Below, in pieces: positions 1,718 to 37,871 of a DNA stretch of 43,686 bases (position 1 is the stretch's first letter; each line of letters starts with the position of its first letter). Where the stretch lies: positions 1-43,686 of IMG/VR virus record IMGVR_UViG_3300025087_001022; one strand, written 5' to 3'. Origin of the DNA: a virus. Both the position numbers and the translations under genes were made by a program. The notes under the pieces are model-generated. The model did not search any database and was not told the DNA's origin. It saw only the letters and a list, made by a program, of their open reading frames with translations.

Positions 1718-2037
1718 GGTTGTGCAGCGGGAAGCAGATGAAATCCCAAATCAGCTAATTTAGTGTCTAGCTTAGCTACGTCGTAATCTTGACACGACGA
1801 TATGTCTATAAAAGCTGTTTCGAATTCGGGATAGGTTGTTATTACAACAGTTCCAGTTGCGAGTAACGCAACAGCTGTTACTCCAGTTATGTTGGGTTCA
1901 TCTTCGATATCGTATACGATCGAACATCTATTCAGCTCGACAGAATCGAGAGTGGACGCAATCTTTGTAAGAGCGTCCTCGGCGGACTCCTTAGTTGGAA
2001 TCAGGTCGTCAACTTGAAAGTGAAATACGTGGTGCAA
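1714..2037 (-). CDS. SpeD/AdoMet decarboxylase-like protein lacking the pyruvoyl serine
   Basis: 107 residues, start TTG with a good ribosome site (AGAGAGG six bases upstream) directly after an in-frame stop, so the start is fixed. The fold signature of bacterial S-adenosylmethionine decarboxylase proenzyme is visible: H-H-V-F-H-F near the N terminus, then I-T-G-V-T-A-V-A-L-L-A, T-T-Y-P-E-F, A-F-I-D-I-S-S-C. In active SpeD the centre reads L-A-E-S-H-I-S-I-H-T-W-P-E; here it reads L-A-T-G-T-V-V-I-T-T-Y-P-E. The Glu-Ser cleavage pair is Thr61-Gly62 and the catalytic His is Thr67, while Pro70, Glu71 and Cys82 are kept. Self-cleavage and pyruvoyl formation therefore look impossible. Inference: a non-catalytic regulator or inhibitor of host SpeD, or a binding protein. 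Stop overlaps the next start (ATGA). Confidence 0.7.
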   Translation of the reverse strand: MHHVFHFQVDDLIPTKESAEDALTKIASTLDSVELNRCSIVYDIEDEPNITGVTAVALLATGTVVITTYPEFETAFIDISSCQDYDVAKLDTKLADLGFHLLPAAQP

Positions 2038-2101
2038 TTATTGCCTCTCTTAACACGCTTGTCTGTAGACAGACTAAACCTGTTTCACGCCATCGTCAAG
2101 A

Positions 2102-2743
2102 TCAATATTTCTTTAGACGCACTCGAATTCGATCTCGCATGCCGGCGCCTTCTTGGAGACGTTTCATATCTTCCAATACCAAGTCTCGCGGGGACTGACC
2201 TCCGCTCTTTGGCTGAATATCTGAAATTTCGTCTAAGGCAATTCTCGTAGATCGCACGGCTATGTCGGCTTCTTGGTTCGCGTTAGATGCTTCTTGACTT
2301 GCTACGTCCGCTTCTCGTCTTGCACTATTACTTCTTCGAATGGCTATAACAGTTCCGCCAAGAGCCGTAATAATAGCCGCTATACCGGCATAATCAAAAC
2401 CCGTTAGTCGTCCCGCAAATCCGAGTGTGGATGCTAACAGTTCTTGGCGTTGTTCCGCAGCTCTGTCAGATTGATTACGGTGCTGTTCTGCCTTGCCGGG
2501 ATTGTACGTTTGGGGTGTTGGTGGCCCCCCGACAAGATTTTGTTGCAGAGTTTCGGCGCCTAAACGAACATCCTTGCCAAGTATGCGAAGATCCTGTCCA
2601 TAACTAGACACCGTTGAGTCGTCGTGAGATGATAGGGTGTTTCCGACATTTTCGACTAGCGAACCAATCTGACGCTGATCTTCTACAATCCGTTGGTCGC
2701 CCGCGCTTATGCAGCTAACACACAACAATAATGAAACCGCCAT
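2102..2743 (-). CDS. signal-peptide/membrane protein with coiled coil
   Basis: 213 residues from ATG at 2743; a TTG ten codons upstream (2773) is the alternative but would overlap the preceding gene. The N terminus M-A-V-S-L-L-L-C-V-S-C looks like a signal peptide or lipoprotein leader with an imperfect lipobox. A second hydrophobic segment (Y-A-G-I-A-A-I-I-T-A-L-G-G-T-V-I-A-I) lies around residues 117-134, followed by an Ala/Glu/Arg/Ser-rich stretch of heptad character and a basic tail. It follows a small one-helix membrane protein. Topology and neighbours are compatible with a lysis accessory or spanin-like role, but no specific motif proves that. Confidence 0.6.
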   Translation of the reverse strand: MAVSLLLCVSCISAGDQRIVEDQRQIGSLVENVGNTLSSHDDSTVSSYGQDLRILGKDVRLGAETLQQNLVGGPPTPQTYNPGKAEQHRNQSDRAAEQRQELLASTLGFAGRLTGFDYAGIAAIITALGGTVIAIRRSNSARREADVASQEASNANQEADIAVRSTRIALDEISDIQPKSGGQSPRDLVLEDMKRLQEGAGMRDRIRVRLKKY

Positions 2744-2754
2744 TTTGTTACGAG

Positions 2755-2991
2755 TCACAGGATAAGTTTCCAAATACCTATAACAATACCGCTAATGGCC
2801 ACAGCACAGGCTCCGACTACTTGGACTGCTTTTATTGCTCCAGCCTGTCTTAGTGACTCGTTCTCCATTACTCGAATATGCCGCCACTGGTCTTGTCCAT
2901 TAATCTCCATTTTGGCTAACGTAGTTTCTATGCGTTCGATGCTTTGAACTACGAGAGCTAGAGATGTTTCAACCGATGGGTCTGGTGACAT
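2755..2991 (-). CDS. small C-tail-anchored membrane protein, XhlA/holin-like
   Basis: 78 residues. An N-terminal amphipathic, coiled-coil-prone region (S-I-E-R-I-E-T-T-L-A-K-M-E-I) is followed by a charged linker and one C-terminal membrane helix (V-V-G-A-C-A-V-A-I-S-G-I-V-I-G-I-W-K) ending two residues before the stop. This is the architecture of hemolysin XhlA-like proteins and small tail-module membrane proteins that assist holins. The family assignment rests on architecture only. No endolysin was recognised nearby, so a lysis role is inference. Confidence 0.6.
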   Translation of the reverse strand: MSPDPSVETSLALVVQSIERIETTLAKMEINGQDQWRHIRVMENESLRQAGAIKAVQVVGACAVAISGIVIGIWKLIL

Positions 2992-3005
2992 GTGAATTCC
3001 GCGAA

Positions 3006-3344
3006 TCAGGGACCTTCTTTAGAAACGACCATTTTCTTAGCCTGTTCAAGTATACATCGCTGTAGCTGGACAACACCAGAAACAAATTTTGCTAGCCGAA
3101 TGCTAGACATTTTGCCCCACTCATACTCTCGTGGAATAGCCTCGCTATTTGTATTGACTAGTAGAGAACCATCACTCGAAATATGAAACTGTTGGGACAC
3201 CAGCGATAGGAAAGCATTCTTTGGCAGTTTAAGAATTACGAAGTTATCATCTTCGAGTTTTTGTTCTTTCTGATGTTGCATGGCATTGTCGAACGCTTCT
3301 TTTAGCTCTTGGCTGTCGTTAATTTCCATTTGACGTGTCCCCAT
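3006..3344 (-). CDS. hypothetical protein
   Basis: 112 residues, not recognised. Gln/Glu/Lys-rich N terminus, then a mixed segment with F-V-I-L-K-L-P-K-N-A-F-L-S-L-V, and a C-terminal helix (L-A-K-F-V-S-G-V-V-Q-L-Q-R-C-I-L-E-Q-A-K-K). No signal peptide or membrane helix. Its first codons overlap the end of the upstream lipoprotein gene by 26 bases. An internal ATG at codon 6 would shorten the overlap. It is probably soluble and part of the small-gene operon downstream of the fibre gene. Confidence 0.6.
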   Translation of the reverse strand: MGTRQMEINDSQELKEAFDNAMQHQKEQKLEDDNFVILKLPKNAFLSLVSQQFHISSDGSLLVNTNSEAIPREYEWGKMSSIRLAKFVSGVVQLQRCILEQAKKMVVSKEGP

Positions 3345-3633
3345 GAGAGTTGGTTAAAATTTCGGTTTTTTCTAGATCTGTTGGTGGAGCCTGATACTCT
3401 TTGGGGACTACGTAGGGGTCTTTTGGGTACCATGCGCCTCGGTCACATGGCGTCATTTCCTTACTAGGTCCGTGGCTAGTATAAACATCGTGACACGTCG
3501 CTTTTGGTAGGCCACATCGCCAACACCACCCCATGTGTCCTAATTCACAAATGTGAGACTCCACCGTCTCTTGTGTTTGGCACCCGAGACACAAACACAA
3601 CCCCAGAACCACAACGAATTTAGGCAGACGCAC
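3319..3633 (-). CDS. Cys-rich lipoprotein
   Basis: 104 residues. Basic start M-R-L-P-K-F, hydrophobic core and lipobox L-C-L-G-C with the lipidated Cys at residue 18: a clear lipoprotein signal. The mature part has a Cys/His cluster (C-E-L-G-H...C-W-R-C-G-L-P-K-A-T-C-H) resembling a small metal-binding knuckle, then a Pro-rich tail. Phage lipoproteins can act in superinfection exclusion or lysis; no evidence here separates these. The gene overlaps both neighbours (14 and 26 bases), which supports translation within the operon. Confidence 0.7.
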   Translation of the reverse strand: MRLPKFVVVLGLCLCLGCQTQETVESHICELGHMGWCWRCGLPKATCHDVYTSHGPSKEMTPCDRGAWYPKDPYVVPKEYQAPPTDLEKTEILTNSHGDTSNGN

Positions 3634-3850
3634 CTAATTCCGCTTGGAGTTTAGCGAGTTGCGCTAGTTTCTGCGCTCGCTGGTTTTTGATGTTCAACAA
3701 ATTGACCAGTGCCTGCGCTGTCTCAAGTTGCTCTTGTGGATGCAGGTTGGCAAGAGCTTCGATGATCTTGTCACGGGCCGCGTCAATTCGAGCTTTCGAT
3801 TCTTGCTGCGCTAATTGGACCGGAGAAAGAGGGGCTATTTCATCTGACAT
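3620..3850 (-). CDS. small helical protein, paralogue of the adjacent gene
   Basis: 76 residues, start ATG with AAAGGAA about nine bases upstream. It shares the core A-R-D-K-I-I-E-(A/T)-(L/I)-A-(N/E)-L-H-P-(Q/E)-E-Q-L-E-(T/A)-A-Q-A with the next upstream gene, so the two arose by tandem duplication. Predicted all-helical, Lys/Gln/Ala-rich and soluble. No function recognised. A minus-strand promoter lies directly upstream between the two paralogues. Confidence 0.65.
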   Translation of the reverse strand: MSDEIAPLSPVQLAQQESKARIDAARDKIIEALANLHPQEQLETAQALVNLLNIKNQRAQKLAQLAKLQAELGASA

Positions 3851-3876
3851 AGGTAATTCCTTTCTTTGTTGACTAC

Positions 3877-3905
3877 ATTATACCTATTGTAAGTATTTCT
3901 AACAA
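3877..3905 (-). promoter_or_regulatory. sigma70-like promoter
   Basis: On the minus strand TTGTTA (3905-3900), a 17-base spacer and a perfect TATAAT (3882-3877). It lies between the two paralogous small genes and about 27 bases before the start at 3850, so it would drive the small-gene, SpeD-like and glycosyltransferase operon separately from the tail genes. Confidence 0.6.
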
Positions 3906-3909
3906 GGGA

Positions 3910-4128
3910 CTAAATACCGACATCGTGTTTAAGTTTGTCAATCTGTTGTTGCTTGACAACACGTTCGTTTATCGCCCGTAGAGCGTTGACAGCGGCTTGA
4001 GCTGCTTCCAGTTGCTCTTCAGGGTGCAACTCTGCGATAGTCTCGATGATTTTGTCTCGGGCTACCTTTATGCGAATACTAGATTCGTGTCTGGCTATCT
4101 CCAGTGGAGATGGATTACGTGGGGCCAT
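3910..4128 (-). CDS. small helical protein, paralogue of the downstream gene
   Basis: 72 residues. Start ATG is fixed by a strong AGGAGG six bases upstream. The sequence contains A-R-D-K-I-I-E-T-I-A-E-L-H-P-E-E-Q-L-E-A-A-Q-A-A-V-N-A-L and a Lys/Gln-rich C-terminal helix. It is the second copy of the duplicated pair with the gene ending at 3620. It sits directly after the large fibre gene. No known family recognised; possible roles include a small structural or chaperone protein. Confidence 0.65.
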   Translation of the reverse strand: MAPRNPSPLEIARHESSIRIKVARDKIIETIAELHPEEQLEAAQAAVNALRAINERVVKQQQIDKLKHDVGI

Positions 4129-4166
4129 TTTATACCTCCTGCATCAATTGGGTTTACAACAGAGAA

Positions 4167-7100
4167 TCATGCGATCCCTGTTGTGTCGAACTCTACGTAT
4201 ACCGTGATTTGTACATTCATTGTCGTTGGTGTGAATGACCCGCCTGAGATGGTAAGTCGGCATCCTATTCTATCTCCAGCTACAAATGTATCCGTACCAA
4301 TAGGTTGGTCATCATAAGCATATTGATCGTCGGTGGCATTTAGAGCAACACTGAATCCAGTTGTAAACGTATTTTTCGAGACTATATATGTTGCAGTTCC
4401 TGCTGTTCGCGGCTCACTTGCGGCAACACCTATACCCACAATACTACCAGAAAACGGCATTACGTACTCCACATTTGGGTCCTCTAATGTAGAGCTGCCA
4501 GCAACAGGTTTAGCCTCAAATTCAGCGGTCGCTGGAATACCATCCTCTATGAAACACAGCGGTACGACCAAACCTCCTTTTGCCGTGATGCCGTTATTCT
4601 TTGCCTTTAGCACAGAGATGTCATTTACCCTGAGTTCGACAACATTATCAGACGACTCTAATAAGTATGTGTCACCCGCACCGCCTACTCCATCCAGAAA
4701 CAGTTTCTTGGTTGCGGCCATACCGATGTTGCCGGCCGCTAGAATCCGCAAATACTCCGTATTGTTAGCCAGAAGGCGTAGCGCATTGTTGCTTGTAGCT
4801 CCAAATAGCAGATTCCCGGCTGATTCGATATACGCTATTGCGGATGCTGTCACATCGCCGCTGCGGGACCAATTGAGTTTTCGATCTGCCGAAGCACCAC
4901 TTAGTGTTTGGTCTGCCGTGAATGTATTTGCCGCGCTTTTTAACGCGGCATCGTTGATCTGTACGGCCGTCAGCGCGACCAGCGTGCCTTGTTGGTACAG
5001 GTTTCCCGCCGAATCGCCGATCTTCTTGGCCCCATCTGCAACAAACAATTCCGCGGCATTCAGTTGAATCCAGTCCACCGTCTGCCCACTACGGCGAATC
5101 GCGAGGGCTTGCACCGCCGCGCTATCGGCATCATTCGCTCCACGGATCATGAAAAATGACTTGCCGCCAGGATCGAAATCATCCGTCACCTGGAACCACC
5201 ACCGGCGGTTGTCTACGCCACCGCCGCCATCGTGGAAAATAAATATCGGATTTGTCGCCTGGAAAGTTTGCTGCCCCGTGAAGGTGTTGTTGGTGCTCAG
5301 GCGTGGGGTGTCCAACAGCGTCACCCCAAGGTCGTAGCCGTCGATGGTGCCGCCCGCACTTACGGTGAGGTTGCCCGTCAGGGCTACTGTTCCGTCGGCC
5401 TTGAGGAACGCGAGCGAGTCCAGACCGTCTAGAAGCCCCGCGTTCGCGGCGATGCCGTCCTTGATGAGACAGCCATCGACGGTCACGCCGGCCGCTGCTG
5501 TCTTTTCTGCGATGGTATCGGTGGCAACGCCGTCGCCAAACGTTTGAAGACCAGTAAAGGTTTGCGCCGCGTCGTTTCTTGCTACTGTAATGCTGGCATC
5601 TGGAAATGTGACTGTTCGAGTAGCCGATGCCGCGTGATCAAACGTCATCGCGTTAGCAGTCCCGGATTTTATCGCTAGATTCTGGTCGATGGTGACCTTT
5701 CCGTCACCATCAATAGCGATATCTTTTCGGCCAGCATCTGTATCGTTGGTAATGTTGAATTCACTAGCGTCAACATTTACAGACCAGTCGTCGGATGCTC
5801 CTGTAGTGTCTACTAACTTAAGGCTGGGGTCGGCATTGGAGATTGTGATGTCGCCGGTAAACGTAGGGGCCTCATCCAAGAACGCGACGTTTTTTCCTCC
5901 TATGCGTATATAGTCTTCGGTAGTTCCATCCCACAGATACAAATCTTCGTTTGTTCGGTCTAGTGTAAGTTGGCCGTCCCATGTCCGATCTTGGGGACGA
6001 TTAGCCGTAGTGGGGACACCGTCGTAGCCATCTGGCGTACGCCCCTGCTCGATCCACTCCGTGATACGCTCCTTGTCAAGTTCGTTAATCTCATTCCACT
6101 CAGGTATGTTCGGCGGCGGGATACCTATCCAGATTGTAGCCTCTATAGATCTGGAAGGTTGTCGCGTCTCTTCTGGTGTGCAGTCCGGGACTTCGTATCT
6201 CGCACACGAGAGCCCGTAACGGTATTGGACTTTGTAGAGAGGGAGATCGACGAACTCAGATTCTTGGTCGACTTTCGTTCCCCACACCCGAACATTTCCC
6301 GTAGACGCTGTGTCGGATTCGACTCTCTTTTGAACATCTGGTATCCTAACTACGGAATACCCGCGCACAGTTTTTGCTTCTTCAATTCGTTTGTCCGCCC
6401 ACCGTTGCAAGTCGTCCGTGTCGGACAAATACGGAAGAATGACTGTTTTATTGCGCGTTCCGTACTCTGTAACAGCTTCTTCGTCTCCTCTTACTACTGT
6501 GGGGGAAAGACCAGAGTTATTACGGCCGATCAATGTGAACATATTGATCAAGTGGTTTCGACCGGACCCGTAGTGAACCTCTTGAGCATTTTTTCCGATG
6601 ATGTATATGTTTCGCTCTTGCACAGTAAGCGTTTTTGCTGCTGTATATATCTTTCGATCAGCGGGATTTACTTTGTAAGTAGTTTGTCCCTGGATTTGTG
6701 CAAGTGTTTCTATAACATGCGCGGCACTTCCGCGAGCGTCAAAGGTCGTAGGTGTATAAGTAGCCGACGCAATCTTAGTCGAGTCGTAAAGAATAGTCGA
6801 TTCGTTCGGTATACCGCCACTTTGAATGACGTCTTTTATCAGTGCCTGAACATCGCTAGTTCCGGCTGTGTAATCTTTTTCTACTCTGGCTTTATTTGCT
6901 TGAGTGGCCCATGCCCCGTTACACTGGACAACACTGACAGTTTTACCACCGATCGACCGGGTATCGACATTAACCAGGTTGCCCCTATACCACCTAGTGT
7001 ATTCTCGTTCTGGTTCGACGCGAATATCAAGGATTATTTCCCACTCGTTGTTGATATAGGTTTGCGGATCTTCGAGGACCTGGCCAAGTGTAAATTCGGC

Positions 7101-8021
7101 TTTGCTAGACCCGCCATCCTCTCGCCAGTCCCACAAGCCTTCCATCACATCTAGCTTAAGTTTTTGCGTGAACGTATTATCGGCTACGGTGCCAACTGCG
7201 TAACCAGTAGTTTTTGCTGGGCCGGATTGAATTGCGCCAGCCGCGTTTTGTATAGTCACCTGAGTAACGTAAGTGTCTGCGGACAGATTCAAAACTTTAG
7301 TTAACTTGATGTCAGAAACACCAGTTTCAGATGCTCCTGTCCCATCTCTGGTTATTGTAGCTATATTTTCCGACGTCGTTACCGTAAACCCGCCTCCAAT
7401 AGTTGTAGACGTAGCGAGTGGAGATGGCCCGAAAGTTGTCTGCCAGGGAAATGTAAGAACAACTTTCCCATCAGCAGGGAGAGCAGTTACAGCTGTGAAC
7501 GTAAAAGTATAGTCCGAATACTCTCTTGCTGTCGTATTGGACAAAGCTGCTGATAGGGTATGTAATCCGCCTATAGAAAAGTTGGGGCTGGACCCAGGTC
7601 CGTCGATAACGACAGAATCCGTGTCTTGGGTAGTTATTTTTAGATTGTATGATCCGGCAGCAGGATTCGTGATCCCTGTTATGGTAAGGTCGACAGCTCC
7701 AATATCCGTAGTACCGTCATTTTGTCTAGTTACAGTTACGACCTGGCCAGATCTAGTAAGAACAAAAGTCCCGGTTATTTCTGTAGATGATGCTCCAAGA
7801 GTTCCGAATTCGTATCCTGGATCGAATTCGACCAGTATTTTTCCATCAGCTGGCAGAGTTGTAGCCAGAGTAAAGTTTAGGGCATACCCAACCGTTGCGG
7901 CGGATGCTACAAAGCTTGTTGGGACAACCGTTATTCCAGTGAGAGTGGTCCTGGGCTTGGCCGGGCGAACTAGCCACGCATGGACATTATACGGCTCTGG
8001 GATCTGCTGACTTTCGGCCAT
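4167..8021 (-). CDS. tail hub/tip protein fused to Ig-like domains and fibre
   Basis: 1284 residues, modular. Residues about 30-150 and 155-278 are two Ig-like repeats with shared patterns (L-P-A-D-G-K-(I/V), T-(I/V)-T-R, G-(I/V)-(T/S)-(N/D)). Residues about 285-660 form a hub or adhesion domain (W-Y-R-G-N-L-V-N-V-D, V-V-Q-C-N-G-A-W, A-H-V-I-E-T-L-A-Q-I) resembling Gp37-like siphovirus tail-tip proteins. From about 690 it is fibre: L-T-L-D-R-T-N-E-D-L-Y-L-W-D-G-T linker, then Thr/Asp/Gly-rich segments with T-F-T-G-x-Q-T-F motifs, ending in a beta-rich knob. It lies at the host-contacting tail tip. The part encoded at about 4.9-5.6 kb is visibly more GC-rich, suggesting an exchanged fibre segment. 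Confidence 0.8.
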   Translation of the reverse strand: MAESQQIPEPYNVHAWLVRPAKPRTTLTGITVVPTSFVASAATVGYALNFTLATTLPADGKILVEFDPGYEFGTLGASSTEITGTFVLTRSGQVVTVTRQNDGTTDIGAVDLTITGITNPAAGSYNLKITTQDTDSVVIDGPGSSPNFSIGGLHTLSAALSNTTAREYSDYTFTFTAVTALPADGKVVLTFPWQTTFGPSPLATSTTIGGGFTVTTSENIATITRDGTGASETGVSDIKLTKVLNLSADTYVTQVTIQNAAGAIQSGPAKTTGYAVGTVADNTFTQKLKLDVMEGLWDWREDGGSSKAEFTLGQVLEDPQTYINNEWEIILDIRVEPEREYTRWYRGNLVNVDTRSIGGKTVSVVQCNGAWATQANKARVEKDYTAGTSDVQALIKDVIQSGGIPNESTILYDSTKIASATYTPTTFDARGSAAHVIETLAQIQGQTTYKVNPADRKIYTAAKTLTVQERNIYIIGKNAQEVHYGSGRNHLINMFTLIGRNNSGLSPTVVRGDEEAVTEYGTRNKTVILPYLSDTDDLQRWADKRIEEAKTVRGYSVVRIPDVQKRVESDTASTGNVRVWGTKVDQESEFVDLPLYKVQYRYGLSCARYEVPDCTPEETRQPSRSIEATIWIGIPPPNIPEWNEINELDKERITEWIEQGRTPDGYDGVPTTANRPQDRTWDGQLTLDRTNEDLYLWDGTTEDYIRIGGKNVAFLDEAPTFTGDITISNADPSLKLVDTTGASDDWSVNVDASEFNITNDTDAGRKDIAIDGDGKVTIDQNLAIKSGTANAMTFDHAASATRTVTFPDASITVARNDAAQTFTGLQTFGDGVATDTIAEKTAAAGVTVDGCLIKDGIAANAGLLDGLDSLAFLKADGTVALTGNLTVSAGGTIDGYDLGVTLLDTPRLSTNNTFTGQQTFQATNPIFIFHDGGGGVDNRRWWFQVTDDFDPGGKSFFMIRGANDADSAAVQALAIRRSGQTVDWIQLNAAELFVADGAKKIGDSAGNLYQQGTLVALTAVQINDAALKSAANTFTADQTLSGASADRKLNWSRSGDVTASAIAYIESAGNLLFGATSNNALRLLANNTEYLRILAAGNIGMAATKKLFLDGVGGAGDTYLLESSDNVVELRVNDISVLKAKNNGITAKGGLVVPLCFIEDGIPATAEFEAKPVAGSSTLEDPNVEYVMPFSGSIVGIGVAASEPRTAGTATYIVSKNTFTTGFSVALNATDDQYAYDDQPIGTDTFVAGDRIGCRLTISGGSFTPTTMNVQITVYVEFDTTGIA

Positions 8022-8022
8022 T

Positions 8023-10245
8023 TTAAATCCAGCGGATTTTGTAGCGGGCTAGCACCTCAACAAATCTTGCCATTCCCACCCACGTTAGATCGAAAGTGCT
8101 TGGGTCATCAAGAAGATAAAGAACATCACTGGCCGTTCCGTCGTCTTGCTTCCAGTTATTCAAGTCACTAGTTCCGTTGTTTTCTACGGTGAAGTTCGGG
8201 AAGTCTGCGACTAGTCTTTGGTTCGGAGCAAGAGTTCCTTGGTAGTCAAACGTTCGACCAGGAAAGTTCTTCACGGGTAATACAGACATACTGGTTACGC
8301 TACGTGAATCGCCTATTGCGTAATGCGTTCTAAGAGCGTCGATGCCCTGGGTTATCGTTCCTCCGGAGTTTTCTACCCACACATGACACACATAATCTCC
8401 GGATGTTGGATTATCCACGTCAGTTATAACAAGTGTGACATCTGTTCCTGACGCCACGGATGTTCCCCCGCTCCGAGTAATTATTAGCGTATTCCCGGAT
8501 ACAGTAGGCGCCAGAGTTCCGTCAATTTGACTACTGGTTACTTCCCCGGCACCAACATTAGCAATCGTCGTGTTTTCAGGGAACTGAATTTTTATTACAT
8601 CGGTTGCTGCTAATGCAGCACTAAGATCAAATGACAAAGTATACGTCGCATCAATCGTACTGGCTGTCGCTGGGCTTACGGTTAGACTTATGTCCGAGAT
8701 TACTACCGGACTTCCCGTAACTGAGAAATACGTAGATGTAGAATACGTATCTAGAACTATGTCCGATGCGTTGGTAGTTTGGATCGCGCAAGCCCAAGTT
8801 CCGGCTTTTGGATTAGTTACGCCAACAATAACCAAGTTTTGGACGCCGGCTGCTTCGGCCGTACCAGTAGATCTCGTAACCGTTAGTACATTTCCCGATG
8901 CCGCTGCGGTAAGAGTTCCGTCCATAGTCGTACTCGTTGCTGTAACACCGATGAGACTGACTCCCACGGGAAAGTCGATAACGATTTTACCGTCGCTTGG
9001 AATTGACGTGTAGGTTGTAAAAGCAAATGTCCAATCTGCGCCTACGGTATCTTCGGCAGCGTTAGATAAACTAACTGATATACTGGCTAGGCCACCTTGG
9101 TATGGTTTGAACGTTAGTCTCGGGAATACGGGCTGCGCGCCTCCGCCGTTAGTAAGAGAGATTGTTTCGGCAGCTCCGTTAGCCAAATTTTCATAGTCCG
9201 ACTCATCTCCAGATTCCCAGGTTCCTGCCCCACTCCCTTCTACAGAAACGCTTACCCAGCTATTAGCTGTAGGATCTGCCTCAATCGCTGTTTTAAGTGT
9301 ATTCGCCGAACTAGTACCGAACGAAACGTTTATGTCCCTGTTTTGTCCGCGAGCAAGATTAGTGAATCCTTGGGCATCCCCAGTTGCCCATATCCCCGTT
9401 CCCGATCCCTGAACAATTACAGTAACCAATGCGCGGGCATCCTTGCTTCTATCGAGAGCGTCTTTCAAATCGTTGGCCGTAGATGTCCCTGCGTTATAGG
9501 TAATTCTGATATCTTTGGCCCTTACTTCAACTAGTTCTTCGGTGCTGTTGACAAACTTGACTCGTATTCTTTCGCCAGTCGTCCCAGTAGCAACTGCTGT
9601 AACGGTAATATCAGCGTCTAAAGCGACAGCGCCAAAAACTTTGGTCGCATTCAACTCTGTTGTTGACGTAACTACGGCTTGGGCCGCGTTTGTCATCTTT
9701 ACCCGAATATTATTTCCTCTTGGACCAACTTCTTTGGCTGTGAACGTTAAATCGTCGTTTGTAAGAGTGCCCGTATCAGTAATTTTAGTAAGACTAGCTC
9801 TTACTCCTTTTGCCTGTACAGTAGCAGCTGTCTCGGAGCCGTAGTAGAAGGGGTCAGGACAGTAGAAACTAATGTGACACACGATAACCAGTCCAGCAGT
9901 TCCCTGGGGAAACGTCTCGTCTGAAACACCTGTAAACACAGCGTTTATGTAACGGTCGCTGTGCTTGTATAGCTTATTCACGCCTTGCGGGAATGCGTTA
10001 ATTACTTCGTCGAATGCTGTTCGAGCATCCTCAGCCGTAGTTCCAGGAGTTGCGGCATCGGTTCCATAAAAACTAACCGCAATGTCTATTGTTCTCGCAT
10101 CCCAAGGAGGATCTTCCTGGAGTCTGGTTCCATGAGTTTTAGCCAGAACAGCTGGGTTCACGCGTTTTGGAACAGACTCGGTCCACGACTCGGAAACCGT
10201 GGTAAACGTCACATCCCCGTATTTTACAAGGATGGTAGCTGGCAT
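8023..10245 (-). CDS. Dit-like distal tail protein with inserted Ig-like repeats
   Basis: 740 residues. Residues 1-140 look like the N-terminal domain of siphovirus distal tail (Dit) proteins (start M-P-A-T-I-L-V-K-Y-G-D-V-T-F, then F-Y-G-T-D-A, and H-I-S-F-Y-C-P-D-P-F-Y-Y-G). Two related modules follow (G-(E/N)-R-I-R-V-K-type, then Q-G-S-G-T-G-x-W repeats). Residues about 390-510 and 512-640 are Ig-like repeats of the kind found in the next protein (I-P-S-D-G-K-I-V-I-D-F-P, V-L-T-V-T-R, V-G-V-T-N-P). The C terminus (650-740: F-P-G-R-T-F-D-Y-Q-G-T-L) resembles the Dit C-terminal beta domain. Its position between tape measure and hub is the usual place of Dit. Confidence 0.78.
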   Translation of the reverse strand: MPATILVKYGDVTFTTVSESWTESVPKRVNPAVLAKTHGTRLQEDPPWDARTIDIAVSFYGTDAATPGTTAEDARTAFDEVINAFPQGVNKLYKHSDRYINAVFTGVSDETFPQGTAGLVIVCHISFYCPDPFYYGSETAATVQAKGVRASLTKITDTGTLTNDDLTFTAKEVGPRGNNIRVKMTNAAQAVVTSTTELNATKVFGAVALDADITVTAVATGTTGERIRVKFVNSTEELVEVRAKDIRITYNAGTSTANDLKDALDRSKDARALVTVIVQGSGTGIWATGDAQGFTNLARGQNRDINVSFGTSSANTLKTAIEADPTANSWVSVSVEGSGAGTWESGDESDYENLANGAAETISLTNGGGAQPVFPRLTFKPYQGGLASISVSLSNAAEDTVGADWTFAFTTYTSIPSDGKIVIDFPVGVSLIGVTATSTTMDGTLTAAASGNVLTVTRSTGTAEAAGVQNLVIVGVTNPKAGTWACAIQTTNASDIVLDTYSTSTYFSVTGSPVVISDISLTVSPATASTIDATYTLSFDLSAALAATDVIKIQFPENTTIANVGAGEVTSSQIDGTLAPTVSGNTLIITRSGGTSVASGTDVTLVITDVDNPTSGDYVCHVWVENSGGTITQGIDALRTHYAIGDSRSVTSMSVLPVKNFPGRTFDYQGTLAPNQRLVADFPNFTVENNGTSDLNNWKQDDGTASDVLYLLDDPSTFDLTWVGMARFVEVLARYKIRWI

Positions 10246-13200
10246 TTACGGAGACCCGCCTGGCGAGAAACTAGCGATCTGCTGGCCCAGCTGTTGCGCA
10301 ATTAGATTTATATCCATCCCGGTTCGTATTTGGAACTGATTGTTCATAGTCACGTTTGCGCCAGCTACGTTGGTTCCACCTATTACTCCACCGAGTCCCG
10401 GAGTTTCGCCAGCGCCCTTTTCGAGTTCTTGCAACTCGGCTTCGCTGATACCTCCAGAAAGAATTTGTGCAATTTCAGACGCTCCTTGGGTGGTCATAAG
10501 CCCGCCACCAAATGTGGCCTGCAACTGTTCGCCGGCACGAGTACGTTCTTTTTGACGCTCGACTTCGGCCATCATCATGGCATGCGCAGCAGCGCGGGCT
10601 CTTCGGTGCCTTATTTTCTTTTTGCTCGCTCCTCCAGTTATTCCAAGTGCTCGCATCGCGAGTGGCACAGCTATAGCTCCGATTGGGCCGCCTATAAGCG
10701 CTCCTCCAATAGCTCCACCCGCCATCGCGGCGTTTCGTCCCCCAGAACCTCGTCCGCCTAACTGCATTCCTCCACGCCCTATCCCAGCTAGCGCCGCAAC
10801 TATAGCTAACGGAGCCATTCCGCTCATCGCAGCGCCAAATCCTCCAGCTGCTGGAGCTGCACCACCAGCGGCGGCTCCTCCACCCGCGGCGGCTCCTCCA
10901 CCCGCGGCGGCTCCTCCACCGCCGAACAAACTTCCTAGCATAGACATAAATCCGCCACCCCCTGCTGGGGCTGCGCCACCTTGGGCAGCTCCGCCCATCA
11001 TAGATCCCAATCCCGAAGACAGTGAAGATGTCAGACCTTGCGCAACTCCTTGGCCCACGCTTTGAACAGATGCCCGAATCACGGACTTTTGAATGTCTTT
11101 CATGGCATCTGCAAATTTTTTACCGTCCAGAATCATAGCTGTAAACGCGTCGGCTGTGCTAGATTCTACAGAATTCATTGCGCTTTCCCACAGATGTGCT
11201 ACCGTCCCCGCTGTCTGCTTCTCAAGCTCTAGCAGTTCTACATCGTACTCGGCTCTTCGGTCTAACTTAGCTTGGATAAGTTCTTCGTCCGATTCAACGC
11301 CTCTAGCATTAGCTTCTCTTTCGAGCCTTCTTATGTCCTTATTGTATTCCTGATCCAGTTTAGCTTTTTGAAGATTGAGCTTTCTTCCTCCGTTTCGGGT
11401 AACTCTAATCTGCCGATTTAACGTAGCGGACTCGTACCTTGCTTTTTCTTCTGCATCTTTGTTGCGAATTTCCAGTTGACCAGCTCGAAATTTACGCTCG
11501 TTAGCTTCTCGACGACTTGCGATAAGTTCATCGGCGTCCACGTCTATCTCAAATTTTTTGCCCTCGTCTTCTGTTTTTGCTACGGCTATGGCTCTTTGCG
11601 TATTAACTTCTGCTTCATATTCTTCTTGTAGGCGATTAAACTTAAGCCGCAAAGCTTGCTCTTCGTTTTCCGTAGTTTCTTCTATGCCGCGCCGTTTAAA
11701 CTCGTTGAACTTATTCATCGCAACTGATTGTTCGTGGAGTAACTCCGCCTCTCGTGCCGAATAAGCCTCAAAAACAGCCCCAGCTTCGCGTAATGTAAAT
11801 TCATAGTTTTCGAGCGACTTTACTTTACTCTGGGCAGCAGCGTACTGTACCTGAGCATCCTCCACAGCAGCTTTTTTAGATGCCTCGAATAGTTCTCTTT
11901 CATTGCCGAAGATAGGTTGATGTCTAGCGTCCAGCGGTAATGGTCTATCAGCCAGTTTTTTAAGTTCGTCTCGCGCAGCTGTTTGTTCCTCAAGAGCCGT
12001 TTGATAATCAGCACCGAGATTAGCAGCTAATACCCGGCTAGCTCCCTTTCGGATATCGCGAAGTTCCTCCAACGACTTCGCGCCCGACACGCGGCTGATC
12101 CCAGATGCTTTAGCCTTGTCTATTCCCTGTAGATAAGCATCTTGTTGCGCTTTTGCAGCCTTCTCAGCAGCAAAGCTAGTATACAACCAAGCATTAGCGA
12201 TCTCGTAAATTCCCGCAGCGATGAGTCCCCATATGCCTATTTTAGCTCCAACGGACATCTTACCAGCAGATCCAGCCAATGTCGCACCAGTTGCAGCATT
12301 ACCAGCGGCTGTTTGGGCAATAGCTGCTTTTGCAGAAGAGACAGTTATGGCTTCCCACATTCTAGCAACGCCCTTACCCGCAATCACAAGCGTAGCGAGA
12401 GTACCACCAAGAGCGATAGTTGTTGCTGTTATTTTTACGAGCCCATTACCAAGCGGAGACTGGGCCATAACAGACATCACGTCCAACGTCCCCATCAACG
12501 CAGGTTTTAGTGTTTGGAACGATGCAATAATCGGAGCTAGGGCAGAATTTTTTAGCTTTATGTAGGCAGCGGATAGATTATTCGTTGCATCAGCTGAAAA
12601 TCTAAGGGCGGCGCCGGTTTCATTTGTATTATCCCGAAGTTCCTCAAATCTTTCGGATCCTTGGCGAGCCAAAGTCAAAAATGGTGTAAGTCCTCGACGA
12701 TTGAATAGTTGGTTGGCTTGAGCTACAGATATATTTGCGTTTTTGAGATTATCGAGAACTTTCGCAAATCCAAGGGTTTGTACAGATACATCTTGAACCG
12801 AAAGTCCAATATCTGCAAATACGTTTTTCGTGGGCGCTGTTTCGAGACTAACTAATATGTTTCGAAGTGCTGTGCCAGCCGCAGTACCTCGGATACCAGC
12901 ATCAGCAAGCATTTGAAAAATAGCGGCCGTATCTTGAAGAGTAAGTCCAAGGGCTTTAGCTGTCGCGCCGCCTTGCACAAATGCGGGGATCAAATCTTTT
13001 AGCTCGGCTTTAGATTTTACCAGAGTCGTGGCCATGATGTCTGACACCATGCCAGCATCCTGCATACTTAGCCCAAACTGAGTAACAACGTCGGTAACCG
13101 ATCTAGCAACTACCCCTAATTCTTCGGAAGATCCGGCGGCAAGATTCAACGCCGGTTGAATTGTTACTGCTACATTCGTAGCTGATAAACCGGCTTTAGC

Positions 13201-14043
13201 TAACACAGCCATCGCGTCCGCAATTTCTGTAGCCGAAAATACACTCGTCGTAGACATCTGGAGAGCAGAGTCTCGAAGAAGACTGAATTCTGCCGACGTT
13301 CCACGAGTAGCAGCCTGGACCGTAGCCATGGCCTTGTCAAAATCTGACGCGGCAGATATCATCTCACGAGCAGCCAAAGTTCCTATTCCAGCGGCTACAA
13401 ATTCAGGGGCCGACGTAAAACCATGGCCGCCTACAAAACCTCTATTGCGGCCACCGCCACCGCCACCACCACCTCCGCCTCCGCCTCCGCCGCCAGAAAA
13501 GGCCGACGCAAATGCCCCGGTTGACGCCGCGCCTCGAAGAAATCTGAGCCGCCCAGCAGCTGCTTTGGGAGACATCATGGTTGATGCTCCCATCGATCCC
13601 GACGATTTAAATAGTCCTCCCGTTGTGGTCGGAGACTGCGAAAGTGAAAGAGATGATCCGCGGAGTCTGCTTACATTGCTCTGCATAGCAGACTCGTTGG
13701 CCCGTCGAATCGAATCTGCTTCTGCTATAGCTGCGCTAGCTCTGTTCCTCGCAGCCTGAATAAATCCTGCCGTGTAAGAATTCCATTTGGCGGTTGAGTT
13801 CGATACAAGCCTCGACTCTTCCTTCATTGTATCTAACAACGTTCTGTTTACGAATTTTATGGCCCGTCCCATCGACGACAACTCTGCTTGGGCGTGCTTT
13901 GTAGCTGCTTGATACGTTTCGAGAGATAGTTTTCCGCGACCGTAGGCAGCGTTTATCATGTCGATATTCTTCAGAACTTTGTTAAATTCTGTTGTCTCGA
14001 CACGAGCTTTAAAAGCGATTAGAACTTCTTTACTAATAGGCAT
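10246..14043 (-). CDS. tail tape measure protein
   Basis: 1265 residues. Residues about 240-570 are the TP901-type tape measure core (A-A-T-R-G-T-S-A-E-F, S-A-T-E-I-A-D-A-M-A-V-L-A-K-A-G, A-G-I-R-G-T-A-A-G-T-A-L-R-N-I-L). A hydrophobic stretch lies near 520-640, long Glu/Lys/Arg/Ala coiled coil covers about 690-960, and a Gly/Ala-rich, membrane-active-looking C terminus follows. Residues about 184-200 hold 15 consecutive glycines, and a G-G-G-A-A-A triplet repeat occurs near the C terminus. The protein sets tail length and is ejected with DNA. By the usual 0.15 nm per residue the tail would be about 190 nm. The ribosome site (AGGTAGG) lies inside the duplicated chaperone end just upstream. 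Confidence 0.93.
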   Translation of the reverse strand: MPISKEVLIAFKARVETTEFNKVLKNIDMINAAYGRGKLSLETYQAATKHAQAELSSMGRAIKFVNRTLLDTMKEESRLVSNSTAKWNSYTAGFIQAARNRASAAIAEADSIRRANESAMQSNVSRLRGSSLSLSQSPTTTGGLFKSSGSMGASTMMSPKAAAGRLRFLRGAASTGAFASAFSGGGGGGGGGGGGGGGRNRGFVGGHGFTSAPEFVAAGIGTLAAREMISAASDFDKAMATVQAATRGTSAEFSLLRDSALQMSTTSVFSATEIADAMAVLAKAGLSATNVAVTIQPALNLAAGSSEELGVVARSVTDVVTQFGLSMQDAGMVSDIMATTLVKSKAELKDLIPAFVQGGATAKALGLTLQDTAAIFQMLADAGIRGTAAGTALRNILVSLETAPTKNVFADIGLSVQDVSVQTLGFAKVLDNLKNANISVAQANQLFNRRGLTPFLTLARQGSERFEELRDNTNETGAALRFSADATNNLSAAYIKLKNSALAPIIASFQTLKPALMGTLDVMSVMAQSPLGNGLVKITATTIALGGTLATLVIAGKGVARMWEAITVSSAKAAIAQTAAGNAATGATLAGSAGKMSVGAKIGIWGLIAAGIYEIANAWLYTSFAAEKAAKAQQDAYLQGIDKAKASGISRVSGAKSLEELRDIRKGASRVLAANLGADYQTALEEQTAARDELKKLADRPLPLDARHQPIFGNERELFEASKKAAVEDAQVQYAAAQSKVKSLENYEFTLREAGAVFEAYSAREAELLHEQSVAMNKFNEFKRRGIEETTENEEQALRLKFNRLQEEYEAEVNTQRAIAVAKTEDEGKKFEIDVDADELIASRREANERKFRAGQLEIRNKDAEEKARYESATLNRQIRVTRNGGRKLNLQKAKLDQEYNKDIRRLEREANARGVESDEELIQAKLDRRAEYDVELLELEKQTAGTVAHLWESAMNSVESSTADAFTAMILDGKKFADAMKDIQKSVIRASVQSVGQGVAQGLTSSLSSGLGSMMGGAAQGGAAPAGGGGFMSMLGSLFGGGGAAAGGGAAAGGGAAAGGAAPAAGGFGAAMSGMAPLAIVAALAGIGRGGMQLGGRGSGGRNAAMAGGAIGGALIGGPIGAIAVPLAMRALGITGGASKKKIRHRRARAAAHAMMMAEVERQKERTRAGEQLQATFGGGLMTTQGASEIAQILSGGISEAELQELEKGAGETPGLGGVIGGTNVAGANVTMNNQFQIRTGMDINLIAQQLGQQIASFSPGGSP

Positions 14044-14045
14044 AG

Positions 14046-14105
14046 CTACGACCTACCTTTTCGGACCTTAGTAGACCGTGACGCGCGCTTCATAGCGTCT
14101 GCTTC
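14046..14105 (-). pseudogene. second 3' end of the tail-chaperone extension gene
   Basis: Minus-strand codons read E-A-D-A-M-K-R-A-S-R-S-T-K-V-R-K-G-R-S-stop, ending two bases before the tape measure start. The intact gene upstream of tnpB ends E-A-D-A-M-K-R-V-S-R-S-S-K-V-R-N-N-R-R-stop. Fourteen of 19 residues match. All 13 matching non-Met residues use a different codon. This looks like the native gene end left behind on the far side of the tnpB insertion; it also carries the tape measure ribosome site. Confidence 0.75.
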
Positions 14106-14111
14106 CCGTTG
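14092..14111 (-). other. predicted guide/target segment at the TnpB right end
   Basis: If the element ends at TTTCGAG (14118-14112), the 20 bases that follow on the minus strand (14111 to 14092) would be the guide part of an omegaRNA, since TnpB guides are copied from the sequence flanking the right end. They fall inside the native 3' end of the chaperone gene. The boundary is inferred, not proven. Confidence 0.4.
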
Positions 14112-14195
14112 CTCGAAACAAAAGTAGTCACACACATTCGACTACTCTTGCAGATTCTCGGTTCACAGTCAGTTGCGTTGCCATCTTACGATGGC
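14112..14195 (-). ncRNA. putative omegaRNA scaffold / IS605-type right-end hairpins
   Basis: Two perfect hairpins overlap the 3' end of tnpB on the minus strand: a 6-bp stem GCCATC/GATGGC with GTAA loop (14195-14180) and a 7-bp stem AGTAGTC/GACTACT with a 10-base loop (14146-14123) that includes the TGA stop. The run TTTTGTTTCGAG follows. This is the place and form expected for the structured 3' part of a TnpB omegaRNA and the right end recognised by TnpA. Confidence 0.55.
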
Positions 14196-15411
14196 GCGGT
14201 CTCCTACCGACTCCACGAGCGTTTAAAGTCTCCGGGCAACTCCCGGCGACCAGAATATTCTTAGCTGCGTTTAGATCCGCGTTCTCTGTGTGGCCGCAAT
14301 CGAGACATTGGAACACAGCCTGCAAAAGCCGATTCCTAGTGTCTGTATAACCACATGTCGAACACTTCTGGCTGGTATAAGCTGGACTAACAATTACGAC
14401 TTTTGCCCCATGCAGCTTGGCTTTATATTCCAATTGTCGGCGAAATTCGTAAAAATTTGCGTCCAGAATACAACGATTTAACCCAGCCTTAGCCGCCCGT
14501 CCTCGGCCACTCCTTTTGCGGGTCATGCTAACAACTTTCAAGTCTTCAATACAGATTACGCCGTGGTTCTTGGCGATTTCTGTCGTAGCCTTGTGAGTTG
14601 CATCTTTACGTAAATTAGCTATCCGACAGTGAATTCGCGCGGCACGCGCACGGGCCCTTATTCTTCGATTTGAACCTTTTTTCTTCCGAGAAAGTGACTT
14701 CTGGGCACGACGGAGTCGCCGCTTGTTTTTATTCGTTGCTTGGGGATTCTCATATACGACCCCGTTACTTAGAACAGCCAACTTTGTCACTCCTAGATCG
14801 ACACCAACACTTGATAAACTATTTGTCGATATCTCTGTGGCATCGACGTGCAACATAACCGACACGAACCAACGCCCAACATGCTCAGTCACACTAACAG
14901 ACTTATAAGTGCCACGTTGGATAGAGTTCCGCTCACCCGGTTTCATACGAACCCACCCAATTTTAGGTAGTTTGATAGTGTGTTGAATAACGTGTGTGGC
15001 TGACGAAAGTTGAAATCCCCCAACCCGACTAGACCGACTTTTGAACTTAGGGAAACCGGGAGTCTGTCCGATTTTACAGCGGCGAAAAAATGCAGCGTAG
15101 GCTAAATCAAGATTTCGAAGCGCCATCTGAGGGGCACATTTGGAGCTATGGTACATCCACGGAATACCGCCTTGATGCTGCGGTAGGACTTTTAGTGACG
15201 TCAACTCACGATGTAAATCAATAGCACTGGGAATCTTTGGAGCATCTTCTTTCAAAACACCAGATTCAATAGCTGCTTTTCGAGCAGCCCACGCTTCGCG
15301 CTTGCGCTGTAGCCCCCAATTCCACGCCCAACGAGCACAACCAGCATGCTGCAAGAGTCTCTGGCGCTGGGCCGCTGTCGGCTGAATCTCAACTTTTCGA
15401 GACAGTATCAT
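14128..15411 (-). CDS. tnpB: RNA-guided nuclease TnpB (IS200/IS605 OrfB family), apparently active
   Basis: 427 residues, normal length. An N-terminal helix-turn-helix region (L-S-R-K-V-E-I-Q-P-T) is followed by a wedge domain and the split RuvC domain: Asp205 in G-V-D-L-G-V, Glu289 in I-C-I-E-D-L, Asp379 in E-N-A-D-L-N-A-A-K-N-I. The zinc finger is C350-x2-C353...C369-x2-C372. All catalytic and zinc residues are present. TnpB proteins cleave DNA next to a short TAM, guided by an omegaRNA from their own 3' end. No tnpA is present. The start codon lies nine bases after the chaperone stop, leaving no room for a classical left end, so the gene is embedded in the tail operon and probably works like a homing nuclease. 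Confidence 0.92.
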   Translation of the reverse strand: MILSRKVEIQPTAAQRQRLLQHAGCARWAWNWGLQRKREAWAARKAAIESGVLKEDAPKIPSAIDLHRELTSLKVLPQHQGGIPWMYHSSKCAPQMALRNLDLAYAAFFRRCKIGQTPGFPKFKSRSSRVGGFQLSSATHVIQHTIKLPKIGWVRMKPGERNSIQRGTYKSVSVTEHVGRWFVSVMLHVDATEISTNSLSSVGVDLGVTKLAVLSNGVVYENPQATNKNKRRLRRAQKSLSRKKKGSNRRIRARARAARIHCRIANLRKDATHKATTEIAKNHGVICIEDLKVVSMTRKRSGRGRAAKAGLNRCILDANFYEFRRQLEYKAKLHGAKVVIVSPAYTSQKCSTCGYTDTRNRLLQAVFQCLDCGHTENADLNAAKNILVAGSCPETLNARGVGRRPRHRKMATQLTVNRESARVVECV

Positions 15412-15420
15412 AATAACACT

Positions 15421-15708
15421 CTACCGTCTATTGTTCCTTACTTTAGAGCTGCGGCTTACTCGTTTCATCGCATCAGCCTCTTCTCTTTTATATTCGTTCA
15501 ACGCGCGAATCATTTCGTTCAACTGAGGTAGCGTCAGCCGTCGGAATATTTTCGGGGTCATACCCCCAAAATTTATGGCGAGAGCTGCGTAAGCCTTTCT
15601 CCAGGTATGCTCTGGCTTTCTTCGGGCGTCTCGGCCATTTCGATCACGTTTGTCCCGGCGGCTTGGCCGGGACTCGTAGGGTCCGGAGTTTCCTCCGCGC
15701 GTTGCCAC
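15421..15708 (-). CDS. tail assembly chaperone T-extension (gpGT-like, -1 frame)
   Basis: 95-codon frame overlapping the end of the G-like gene by 136 bases and lying in its -1 frame. The upstream part is Arg/Lys-rich; the conserved part (A-A-L-A-I-N-F-G-G-M-T-P-K-I-F-R-R-L-T-L-P-Q-L-N-E-M-I-R) resembles T-extensions that bind the tape measure. It is probably made only as a fusion through -1 frameshifting. The only upstream start is GTG with no ribosome site. I found no canonical X-XXY-YYZ heptamer in the overlap. Its last 20 codons are a recoded copy of the sequence now beyond tnpB (14046-14105). Confidence 0.7.
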   Translation of the reverse strand: MATRGGNSGPYESRPSRRDKRDRNGRDARRKPEHTWRKAYAALAINFGGMTPKIFRRLTLPQLNEMIRALNEYKREEADAMKRVSRSSKVRNNRR

Positions 15709-16094
15709 AAGCCGCTGACAACGAGAACGCTGATCACCCCCTCAAGCAATTGTGGGAATTCTCGATAGGTAAACATTCGCCCGACCTTGGTAAGACTCAC
15801 GGACCAATCACCAACGTCGAGCTGCGACTCAGTTAGACCCTCCTTTCGCATAGCCAACCAGGCCAAGAACAAGATTTTCTCGTACAACGCTTTATCCGGC
15901 TTGATATCACCGGTAATAGCATCAATCTCCTGTTTGGGAGTCAGGATCTCCAAATCTCCGTATTTCACGTAGATTTCGGATATGTCTCCGAGGTCCAGAA
16001 CAGTGAGAGTGTGAGTCTTACCGTCCTTGTCGCTAACCTTGAAACTGTTTACTTGGACCAGGTTTGCCAGGTCTTTAGCTTGGTTATCGGCCAC
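15573..16094 (-). CDS. tail assembly chaperone (gpG-like)
   Basis: 173 residues between major tail protein and tape measure region, the usual place of the G-type chaperone. It contains V-N-S-F-K-V-S-D-K-D-G-K-T-H-T-L-T-V-L-D-L-G-D and an alpha-helical middle (Y-E-K-I-L-F-L-A-W-L-A-M-R-K-E-G-L-T), then a Pro/Glu-rich end that overlaps the T frame. Such proteins coat the tape measure protein before tail tube polymerisation. Assignment is from position, size and the overlapping -1 frame. Confidence 0.72.
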   Translation of the reverse strand: MADNQAKDLANLVQVNSFKVSDKDGKTHTLTVLDLGDISEIYVKYGDLEILTPKQEIDAITGDIKPDKALYEKILFLAWLAMRKEGLTESQLDVGDWSVSLTKVGRMFTYREFPQLLEGVISVLVVSGLWQRAEETPDPTSPGQAAGTNVIEMAETPEESQSIPGERLTQLSP

Positions 16095-16108: not shown

Positions 16109-17119
16109 TTAGATTGACGAGATCTCGTTAACCAAAACAGCTCTGAGTTCGGTCTGGTTAATAGCAGCTGCTTGCGACGGGTCTCGAAGTGCCGTGAACG
16201 GAATAGTTTGGGTTATGATCCCAGTATCGTCCACATTCAAATCTACATTCGTCGGAAGGATATGCGGCAACGTAATCGTAAGACTCTGGGCTGTGCCAGA
16301 GCTTGGCACGTTCCCACCAGTGAAGGTCAAAACGAGCTGCTTAGTTGTCGAATTGCGAAACTCGTTATACCGAGCAAACCCGTCGAAATCGGCAACGAAC
16401 GACCCAGAAATCTCGATCTTCCCGCCGCGAACAGGCTCACGAGTCAGCCGAGAACCGATTCGGAAACGATCTGCGTTCAAGTTGTTATTGATGGTTAGCT
16501 CGAAGCTTTCCACGTTTGTCGTAAAGTTGTCATATGACAACGATCCCTCGGTAAACACAATCAGATCGCGTGTTGCGTTAAGGTCGGTATTAACCGTGGC
16601 GGCTACTGTTCTAGCTGACCGATTTTCATCCTCGCCGACAAAGCTGACCGTAGCCGACAGATACGCTCCAATAGCTGCGGATAGCGACAACGAATTGACC
16701 TTGCACCCCTCGTAAATAAAGGCTACGTCGTCATCGGCACCCAAAAAAGACTCCGAGTCGCGATAAATTTCTACTGTAAGCCCCGTGGGAAGAGCATCTG
16801 TAATTCTGAAAGAGTGCGTGTACGCAAAGTCCGCTGGACCAGTCGTAGCAACGGCTCCGAGAGCGTGCTTGAGAATGAATTCCCAGTCGTAGTATGGAAC
16901 GTCAAACGTAACGTCCCCCGCGATACGAAACAGCCCGTTGGCTACGCGCAAGTAGCGCGTTCCAATTTGGTTCAAGCTACCAGAAATAACTCGTTCGTGC
17001 GAGAGTGACAGACTCTCGCTATTGATGTCGAGAAATTTGGTACGGGTTACCGGAGTTCCGTAAGTAGCCTCTTCGCCAAGACCGACGTAAACTTTATGAC
17101 CAAATCCAGCAGTGCCCAT
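16109..17119 (-). CDS. major tail (tube) protein
   Basis: 336 residues. Start context M-G-T-A-G-F-G-H-K-V-Y-V-G-L-G-E-E-A-T-Y-G-T-P-V is typical of phage tail tube proteins, as are the beta-rich body (E-I-S-G-S-F, I-A-G-D-V-T-F-D-V-P) and repeated E-L-T-I-N-N-N-L motif near residue 210. ATG is preceded by AGGAGA. It forms the tube through which DNA passes. Longer than minimal tube proteins, so it may have an extra surface domain. Confidence 0.85.
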   Translation of the reverse strand: MGTAGFGHKVYVGLGEEATYGTPVTRTKFLDINSESLSLSHERVISGSLNQIGTRYLRVANGLFRIAGDVTFDVPYYDWEFILKHALGAVATTGPADFAYTHSFRITDALPTGLTVEIYRDSESFLGADDDVAFIYEGCKVNSLSLSAAIGAYLSATVSFVGEDENRSARTVAATVNTDLNATRDLIVFTEGSLSYDNFTTNVESFELTINNNLNADRFRIGSRLTREPVRGGKIEISGSFVADFDGFARYNEFRNSTTKQLVLTFTGGNVPSSGTAQSLTITLPHILPTNVDLNVDDTGIITQTIPFTALRDPSQAAAINQTELRAVLVNEISSI

Positions 17120-36280: not shown

Positions 36281-36368
36281 GGGCGTGTGGCGAAACGGCA
36301 TACGCGCGGGATTCAAAATCCCGTTCCGGTAACACGGAGTGCAAGTTCAAATCTTGCTGCGCCCACCA
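36281..36368 (+). tRNA. tRNA-Leu (anticodon CAA)
   Basis: Complete class II cloverleaf with encoded CCA: acceptor GGGCGTG/TGCGCCC (two wobbles), anticodon stem CGGGA/TCCCG with loop TTCAAAA (anticodon CAA at 36314-36316), long variable arm, T-arm GCAAG-TTCAAAT-CTTGC. Confidence 0.93.
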
Positions 36369-37803: not shown

Positions 37804-37871
37804 GGTTGGAAGTTGTAGCATCCTTTTGCGAAGAAACGGTCGTCGCTCCTCCGTATCGTTTGGGCCATTAG
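37800..37871 (+). CDS. possible 23-aa peptide
   Basis: M-R-L-E-V-V-A-S-F-C-E-E-T-V-V-A-P-P-Y-R-L-G-H. Start overlaps previous stop (ATGA) and has GGAG five bases upstream. It runs ten bases into tRNA-Val. Could be a leader peptide or chance. Confidence 0.35.
   Translation: MRLEVVASFCEETVVAPPYRLGH

Follow-up and report, generated by a model that had tools for sequence, protein, structure and literature searches.

A transposase-free phage TnpB beside a replaced tail-chaperone gene end: a probable RNA-guided homing cassette

How can the gene for an RNA-guided nuclease occupy a conserved gene end without killing the phage that carries it? We address this question with a tnpB gene located among the tail genes of IMG/VR record IMGVR_UViG_3300025087_001022 (the "window", that is, the whole stretch of 43,686 bases that was analysed). 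On the minus strand, the gene order is tail tube, first frame of the tail-assembly chaperone, chaperone extension frame, tnpB, a second chaperone-like end, and tape measure. We consider it probable that this transposase-free TnpB belongs to an RNA-guided homing cassette that replaces the very gene end that TnpB would cut.

Two versions of the chaperone end

The chaperone frame reads into the copy of its end that lies upstream of tnpB (the "carried" end, EADAMKRVSRSSKVRNNRR and a stop), so that the gene is whole. The second copy (the "displaced" end, EADAMKRASRSTKVRKGRS and a stop) starts mid-gene, without its own start codon, and its first base directly follows the predicted right end of tnpB. 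The two ends are identical at 14 of 19 residues; however, none of the 13 shared residues other than Met uses the same codon, where 3.9 would be expected from the codon usage of the window (P = 0.007). The G+C content of third codon positions (GC3) at the shared residues does not differ between the ends (6/13 vs 7/13); thus, altered codon usage is not the explanation. The amino acid score of the pair, 72, exceeds the maximum of 57 among 1000 swapped-flank pairs as well as the maximum of 42 reached in 4000 swaps when the comparison is anchored at the stop codon; this confirms that the duplication of the chaperone end is greater than chance. The original prediction had located these ends, counted their shared residues and codons, and proposed that the TnpB unit carries a replacement gene end. 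Its coordinates (minus strand; Table 1) and counts are correct, and the proposal is supported by the chaperone made whole via the upstream copy, by the displaced copy at the predicted guide start, and by the same layout at three other loci and, more weakly, a fourth (see below).

When IMG/VR was scanned for EADAMKRxS in any coding, seven contigs were returned. In six, the frame ends with KKEADAMKRKSRYS and a stop directly ahead of a tape-measure-like start; the seventh has EADAMKRATDS and a stop in a less clear frame. Judged from these sequences, EADAMKRxS is a real chaperone-end motif. It is present once in all seven contigs, and none of them has tnpB at that point; the window, therefore, contains two variants of a conserved chaperone end that normally occurs once. 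From its continuity with the tape-measure gene, we infer that the displaced copy is the ancestral version in the lineage of the window: the tape-measure ATG (at 14043) follows two bases past the displaced end, and the likely ribosome-binding bases, AAAGGTAGG, are located inside this end, just ahead of its TAG and the tape-measure ATG.

The TnpB and its predicted guide

The window TnpB matches PF12323, PF01385, and PF07282 (helix-turn-helix, OrfB, and zinc ribbon), all over cut-off. It retains the zinc ribbon and the RuvC residues D205, E289, and D379; these three acidic residues are invariant in the TnpB alignment and align with those of the solved ISDra2 TnpB (8bf8; E = 2e-51). The gap between the chaperone stop and the tnpB ATG is 9 bases and contains no open reading frame (ORF); neither the adjacent serine-recombinase tnpA nor the left end of a complete IS607 element is present at the locus. 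The closest TnpBs in phage contigs share 41-45% identity with the window TnpB, and the best relatives in GTDB genomes only 25-26%; tnpA-like ORFs were recognized by eye in two relatives (L026 and L069). Eight diverse TnpBs, once aligned, proved too different from one another to serve as a basis for scanning.

For IS200/IS605 and IS607 elements, it is established that the DNA next to the right end supplies the TnpB guide (PMC8612924, PMC11061315). The nearest phage TnpBs share a terminal motif, GTTTCGGAGAACGG, that precedes unrelated flanks (exact in L027, L028, and L060; close forms in L029, L018, L019, L026, and L057/L058). The window has GTTTCGAGCAACGG in the same place, with three mismatches to GTTTCGGAGAACGG; an equally good match was found in 0 of 200 shuffles. 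The hairpin at 14151-14118 has a minimum free energy of -17.8 kcal/mol vs -8.8 ± 2.2 for shuffles (z = -4.1). The window tnpB has, at its 3' end, a predicted omegaRNA scaffold that ends at the right end, with the guide beyond. The base after the right-end motif is 14105, where the duplicated end also begins. An RNA-end motif from other phages and an amino acid duplication in this one point, independently, to the same base. Because of this coincidence, the predicted guide spells the native gene end: GAAGCAGACGCTATGAAGCG comprises its E A D A M K R codons. No other site in the window matches this guide at three or fewer mismatches. The carried copy mismatches it at positions 3, 6, 9, 12, and 18 (5/20, four within the first 12), and is probably out of the reach of the enzyme.

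Comparison with the nearest TnpBs favoured ...ACGG over two other placings of the right end, directly after the hairpin or 4 bases earlier at ...GCAA; whichever of the three is used, the guide falls within the displaced end or extends into it, and it differs from the carried copy. The published target-adjacent motifs (TAMs) of IS607 TnpBs are AGGAG or GAGGG (PMC11061315); the bases ahead of the carried copy are GAGAA, a likeness that is only suggestive.

Table 1. Features of the tnpB locus and the basis on which each was assigned.
Feature	Positions	Strand	Basis
Tail-tube gene	16109-17119	minus	PF18906
Tail-assembly chaperone, first frame (G-like, 173 residues)	15573-16094	minus	named by position between tail tube and tape measure
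Chaperone extension frame (T-like), ending in the copy in use	15421-15708	minus	open frame overlapping the first ORF; terminal EADAMKR
Carried (recoded) gene end, EADAMKRVSRSSKVRNNRR and stop	15421-15480	minus	chaperone frame; last 19 codons and TAG
tnpB, 427 residues	14128-15411	minus	Pfam and PHROG matches; adjacent tnpA absent
13-bp hairpin at tnpB 3' end, predicted omegaRNA 3' stem	14118-14151	minus	folding energy
Right-end motif GTTTCGAGCAACGG, predicted last omegaRNA scaffold bases	14106-14119	minus	motif common to nearest phage TnpBs
Predicted 20-nt guide GAAGCAGACGCTATGAAGCG	14086-14105	minus	starts right after right-end motif
Displaced native gene end, EADAMKRASRSTKVRKGRS and stop	14046-14105	minus	homology to carried end
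Tape-measure protein, 1265 residues	10246-14043	minus	PF10145, E = 1.8e-36; phrog_1533

The first chaperone frame has no match of its own in Pfam or PHROG, and the joining of the G-like and T-like frames by a frameshift is an assumption taken from the family. A second contig of the same phage (L002; 52,658 bases) starts inside the tape-measure gene and is 100% identical over tape-measure residues 179-1265 (window 1-13509); the window is probably only part of the full phage genome. The right-hand side of the window encodes two tRNAs (36281-36365 and 37862-37935, both plus strand), and an Rfam scan of the window found nothing beyond these.

The same layout at other tnpB loci

We compared the translated flanks of tnpB at 139 loci, which form 100 clusters at 90% tnpB identity; most come from IMG/VR contigs, and the rest are from INPHARED phages and a few genome loci. 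A carried C-terminus in frame, followed by the nuclease and then by a displaced C-terminus at the guide, was found in 4 of the 100 clusters, that is, in the window and at L081, L105, and L155, three tnpB loci unrelated to it. In the swapped-flank test, L105, L155, and L081 score 141, 108, and 74; in the stop-anchored test, they score 71, 108, and 74, and the next locus scores 37. The layout was found at none of 51 cyanobacterial chromosomal tnpBs (maximum anchored score, 33). A weaker fifth case, L151, involves what appears by eye to be a Lar-like zinc-finger gene. In all five, the displaced copy starts no more than 3 nt from the right end; the guide and the copy in use differ at 5 of 20 positions in the window and at 7 to 9 in the other four (5, 9, 7, 9, and 9, as listed).

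In L081, the upstream gene encodes a DUF6440 lipoprotein that ends with KESIFYDRETGVMYLGVRSANQLALTVLLNADGTPMLYQDAP and a stop. The right end is GGGGAGTGTCAA, the terminal GTGTCAA of which is common to L075, L080, L088, L124, and L125. It is followed by CAGGAGTCGATTTTCTAC (QESIFY), the loss of ∼19 residues, and then MTVLLNADGTPMLYEGAT and a stop. The loss begins just past guide base 18, as would be predicted from retention of the guide and free decay of the remainder. None of the 18 shared codons for residues other than Met is the same. In L105, the right end is TTTGCAA and the copy extends over 57 residues, 25 of them identical; in L155, the right end is GTTCAA, again followed by the displaced copy; in L151, it is TAGTTCAC, common to L142, L149, and L162. 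The right ends of L081 and L155 are better defined than that of the window. No empty site was found for L081, L151, or L155.

Several of these loci have further features of their own. The L081 contig has a second tnpB ∼21 kb away, 70% identical and with the same type of right end but another guide (L081/L123 and L125; IMGVR 3300031993_000229). In L088/L128, the bases after GTGTCAA are TGCATGGACTGACTCGAACCTCGT; the stretch GACTCGAACC within them corresponds to a tRNA T-arm in reverse complement, so that the end of a tRNA gene may be the target of this TnpB guide. In L155, a terminator-like inverted repeat follows both copies (∼3700-3830 and ∼2440-2490), so the replaced stretch appears to run beyond the stop codon. 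In L105 (4230-4320), two direct copies of GCGCGCGCGGATGTTTGCA are located in the 3' region of the element, one at the right end, an arrangement that resembles a duplicated right end.

Many high-scoring pairs from the first survey (L086, L078, L021, and L065) were low-complexity frames and were dropped after filtering; the flank pairs of L009 and L138 look like repeat domains. A stand-alone tnpB in a 485-kb uncultured phage (L018; LR745208), with the right-end motif GTTTTGGATAACGG, is located just before the apparent start of the large-terminase gene; a recoded end was not detected there. Antisense tnpBs are found between structural genes in two isolates, Mycobacterium phage Empress (L120; tape measure/minor tail) and Klebsiella phage ZCKp20p (L114; two minor capsid ORFs); a replaced end was not detected in either, and both are possible laboratory models.

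A homing cassette and its alternatives

In the mechanism that we propose, the cassette would consist of the chaperone end, tnpB, and the right end. An omegaRNA would be made from the 3' end of tnpB and would stop at the conserved right-end motif; its guide would be the sequence directly past this motif, that is, the native chaperone 3' end. A co-infecting phage without the cassette would be cut by TnpB at its native end and, on repair with the carrier as template, would acquire the cassette. Because the cassette brings its own, differently coded end, the chaperone would be kept whole and the carrier would remain uncut, protected both by mismatches in the seed and by detachment of the native end from its TAM. 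The displaced end would stay as guide, right homology arm, and tape-measure leader. The carried end may have been derived from a diverged phage, with its recoding selected later.

Several observations weigh against this mechanism. The four clusters with the layout are a minority of the 100 surveyed. No right-end family with more than 50% TnpB identity exists for the window TnpB; its boundary is a 14-nt motif taken from relatives with 41-45% identity, with three mismatches, and this motif was not found near the chromosomal tnpBs of the nearest cyanobacterial genomes. The same-codon counts in L105 (9/22), L155 (7/16), and L151 (4/8) are about those of unlinked homologues. The original claim of synonymous recoding against the guide fits the window, with its 5/20 mismatches and 0/13 shared codons; complete recoding marks only the window and L081, and at the remaining three of the five loci the divergence is of the ordinary kind. 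For the window and L081, the product of the P values is ∼2e-6, for a pair chosen post hoc, and there is no GC3 difference. When the tape measure, the tail tube, the chaperone, and tnpB were searched against IMG/VR and INPHARED, no close tnpB-free relative was found, only the overlapping contig L002 and otherwise distant phages; neither of the two arrangements named in the original prediction as evidence against it (tnpB-free relatives with both ends in tandem, or with an only end like that at 15421-15480) was encountered.

The recurrence of the layout in four unrelated genes weighs against a passive origin, in which an IS607-type tnpB inserted near the chaperone end, recombination with a diverged phage restored this end, the nuclease is idle for spread, and the codon difference is divergence. 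Such an origin seems to us unlikely. It is compatible with a window tnpB that is transposase-free, with the ordinary synonymous divergence in L105, L155, and L151, and with the absence of the layout from most surveyed phage tnpBs. However, it does not lead one to expect an intact tnpB with all of its RuvC residues or, in L081, a displaced copy that retains the first 18 guide bases and has lost the residues that follow; moreover, 0/31 shared codons in the window and L081 together, with ∼10 expected, is beyond neutral saturation.

We give very little credence to the second end being an unrelated tandem duplication or a small phage peptide gene, with tnpB between the ends by chance. Both ends are in frame with a stop, and the motif is conserved in chaperone ends; however, the downstream copy has no start of its own and begins mid-gene at exactly the predicted right end, the motif is single in the seven tnpB-free contigs, and the same coincidence occurs in other genes with other tnpBs. 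Even less probable is a chimera assembled from two phage strains of the metagenome: although the junction is covered by a single assembly (L002 begins within the tape-measure gene), a chimeric breakpoint would have to fall at the predicted tnpB right end, and independent assemblies carry the same layout in other genes.

The homing cassette has a parallel in the mobile endonuclease ORFs of fungal mitochondria that bring a foreign C-terminus, first described for Allomyces macrogynus atp6 and also found in Glomus sp. atp6, atp9, cox2, and nad3 (PMC3630166). In both systems, the order is gene, carried C-terminus, endonuclease, and displaced native C-terminus, the protein is kept better than the DNA (the Glomus atp6 copies share 91% amino acid vs 63.5% nucleotide identity; PMC3630166), and homing is inferred. 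The fungal endonucleases are protein-guided (LAGLIDADG/GIY-YIG) and mitochondrial, whereas the phage nuclease is RNA-guided; because the displaced end is itself the predicted guide, the target is written into the junction of the phage cassette. By this analogy, the window element is best read as the RNA-guided counterpart of these fungal ORFs.

TnpB acts as a gene drive in plasmids (PMC11870625), and the IS607 TnpB is RNA-guided (PMC11061315). The window element resembles IS607 and IS200/IS605 TnpB-omegaRNA elements in its protein family, RuvC residues, predicted 3' omegaRNA, and predicted guide from the right-end flank; unlike them, it has no adjacent tnpA and no left end between gene and tnpB, and the interrupted gene is restored by a replacement end. 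It is a stand-alone phage nuclease gene, as are the T4 seg genes, free-standing homing endonucleases that spread in mixed infection by intronless homing; these are protein-guided and cut hundreds to thousands of bases from their genes, and the part of that source cited here describes no duplicated end of the target gene (PMC2988022). Prophage TldR, a nuclease-dead TnpB with its own flagellin gene, represses a host gene and resembles the window element in that a TnpB relative from a phage occurs together with a version of its target gene (PMC13418256); however, TldR has lost RuvC activity, whereas all three acidic residues are kept in the window TnpB, the predicted target of which is a phage gene end. 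In the papers searched, we found no precedent for a TnpB or phage element with a replaced gene end; an unpublished one is possible.

A broader proposal, which we advance tentatively and with less than even confidence, is that phages carry natural RNA-guided home-and-rescue drives, that is, TnpB cassettes that would cut the end of an essential gene, put a synonymous copy in its place, and keep the displaced end as a stored guide; every codon of the copy would have been recoded under selection against self-cutting and against recombination between the copies. The homing cassette offers a concrete, testable answer to the role of stand-alone TnpBs in phage genomes and to how they can occupy conserved gene ends without killing the phage; the loci described here also provide ready-made triplets of predicted guide, target, and immune copy. 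If true, it would connect TnpB with the fungal mitochondrial homing elements that replace a C-terminus and would provide a natural counterpart of the recoded rescue in engineered gene drives.
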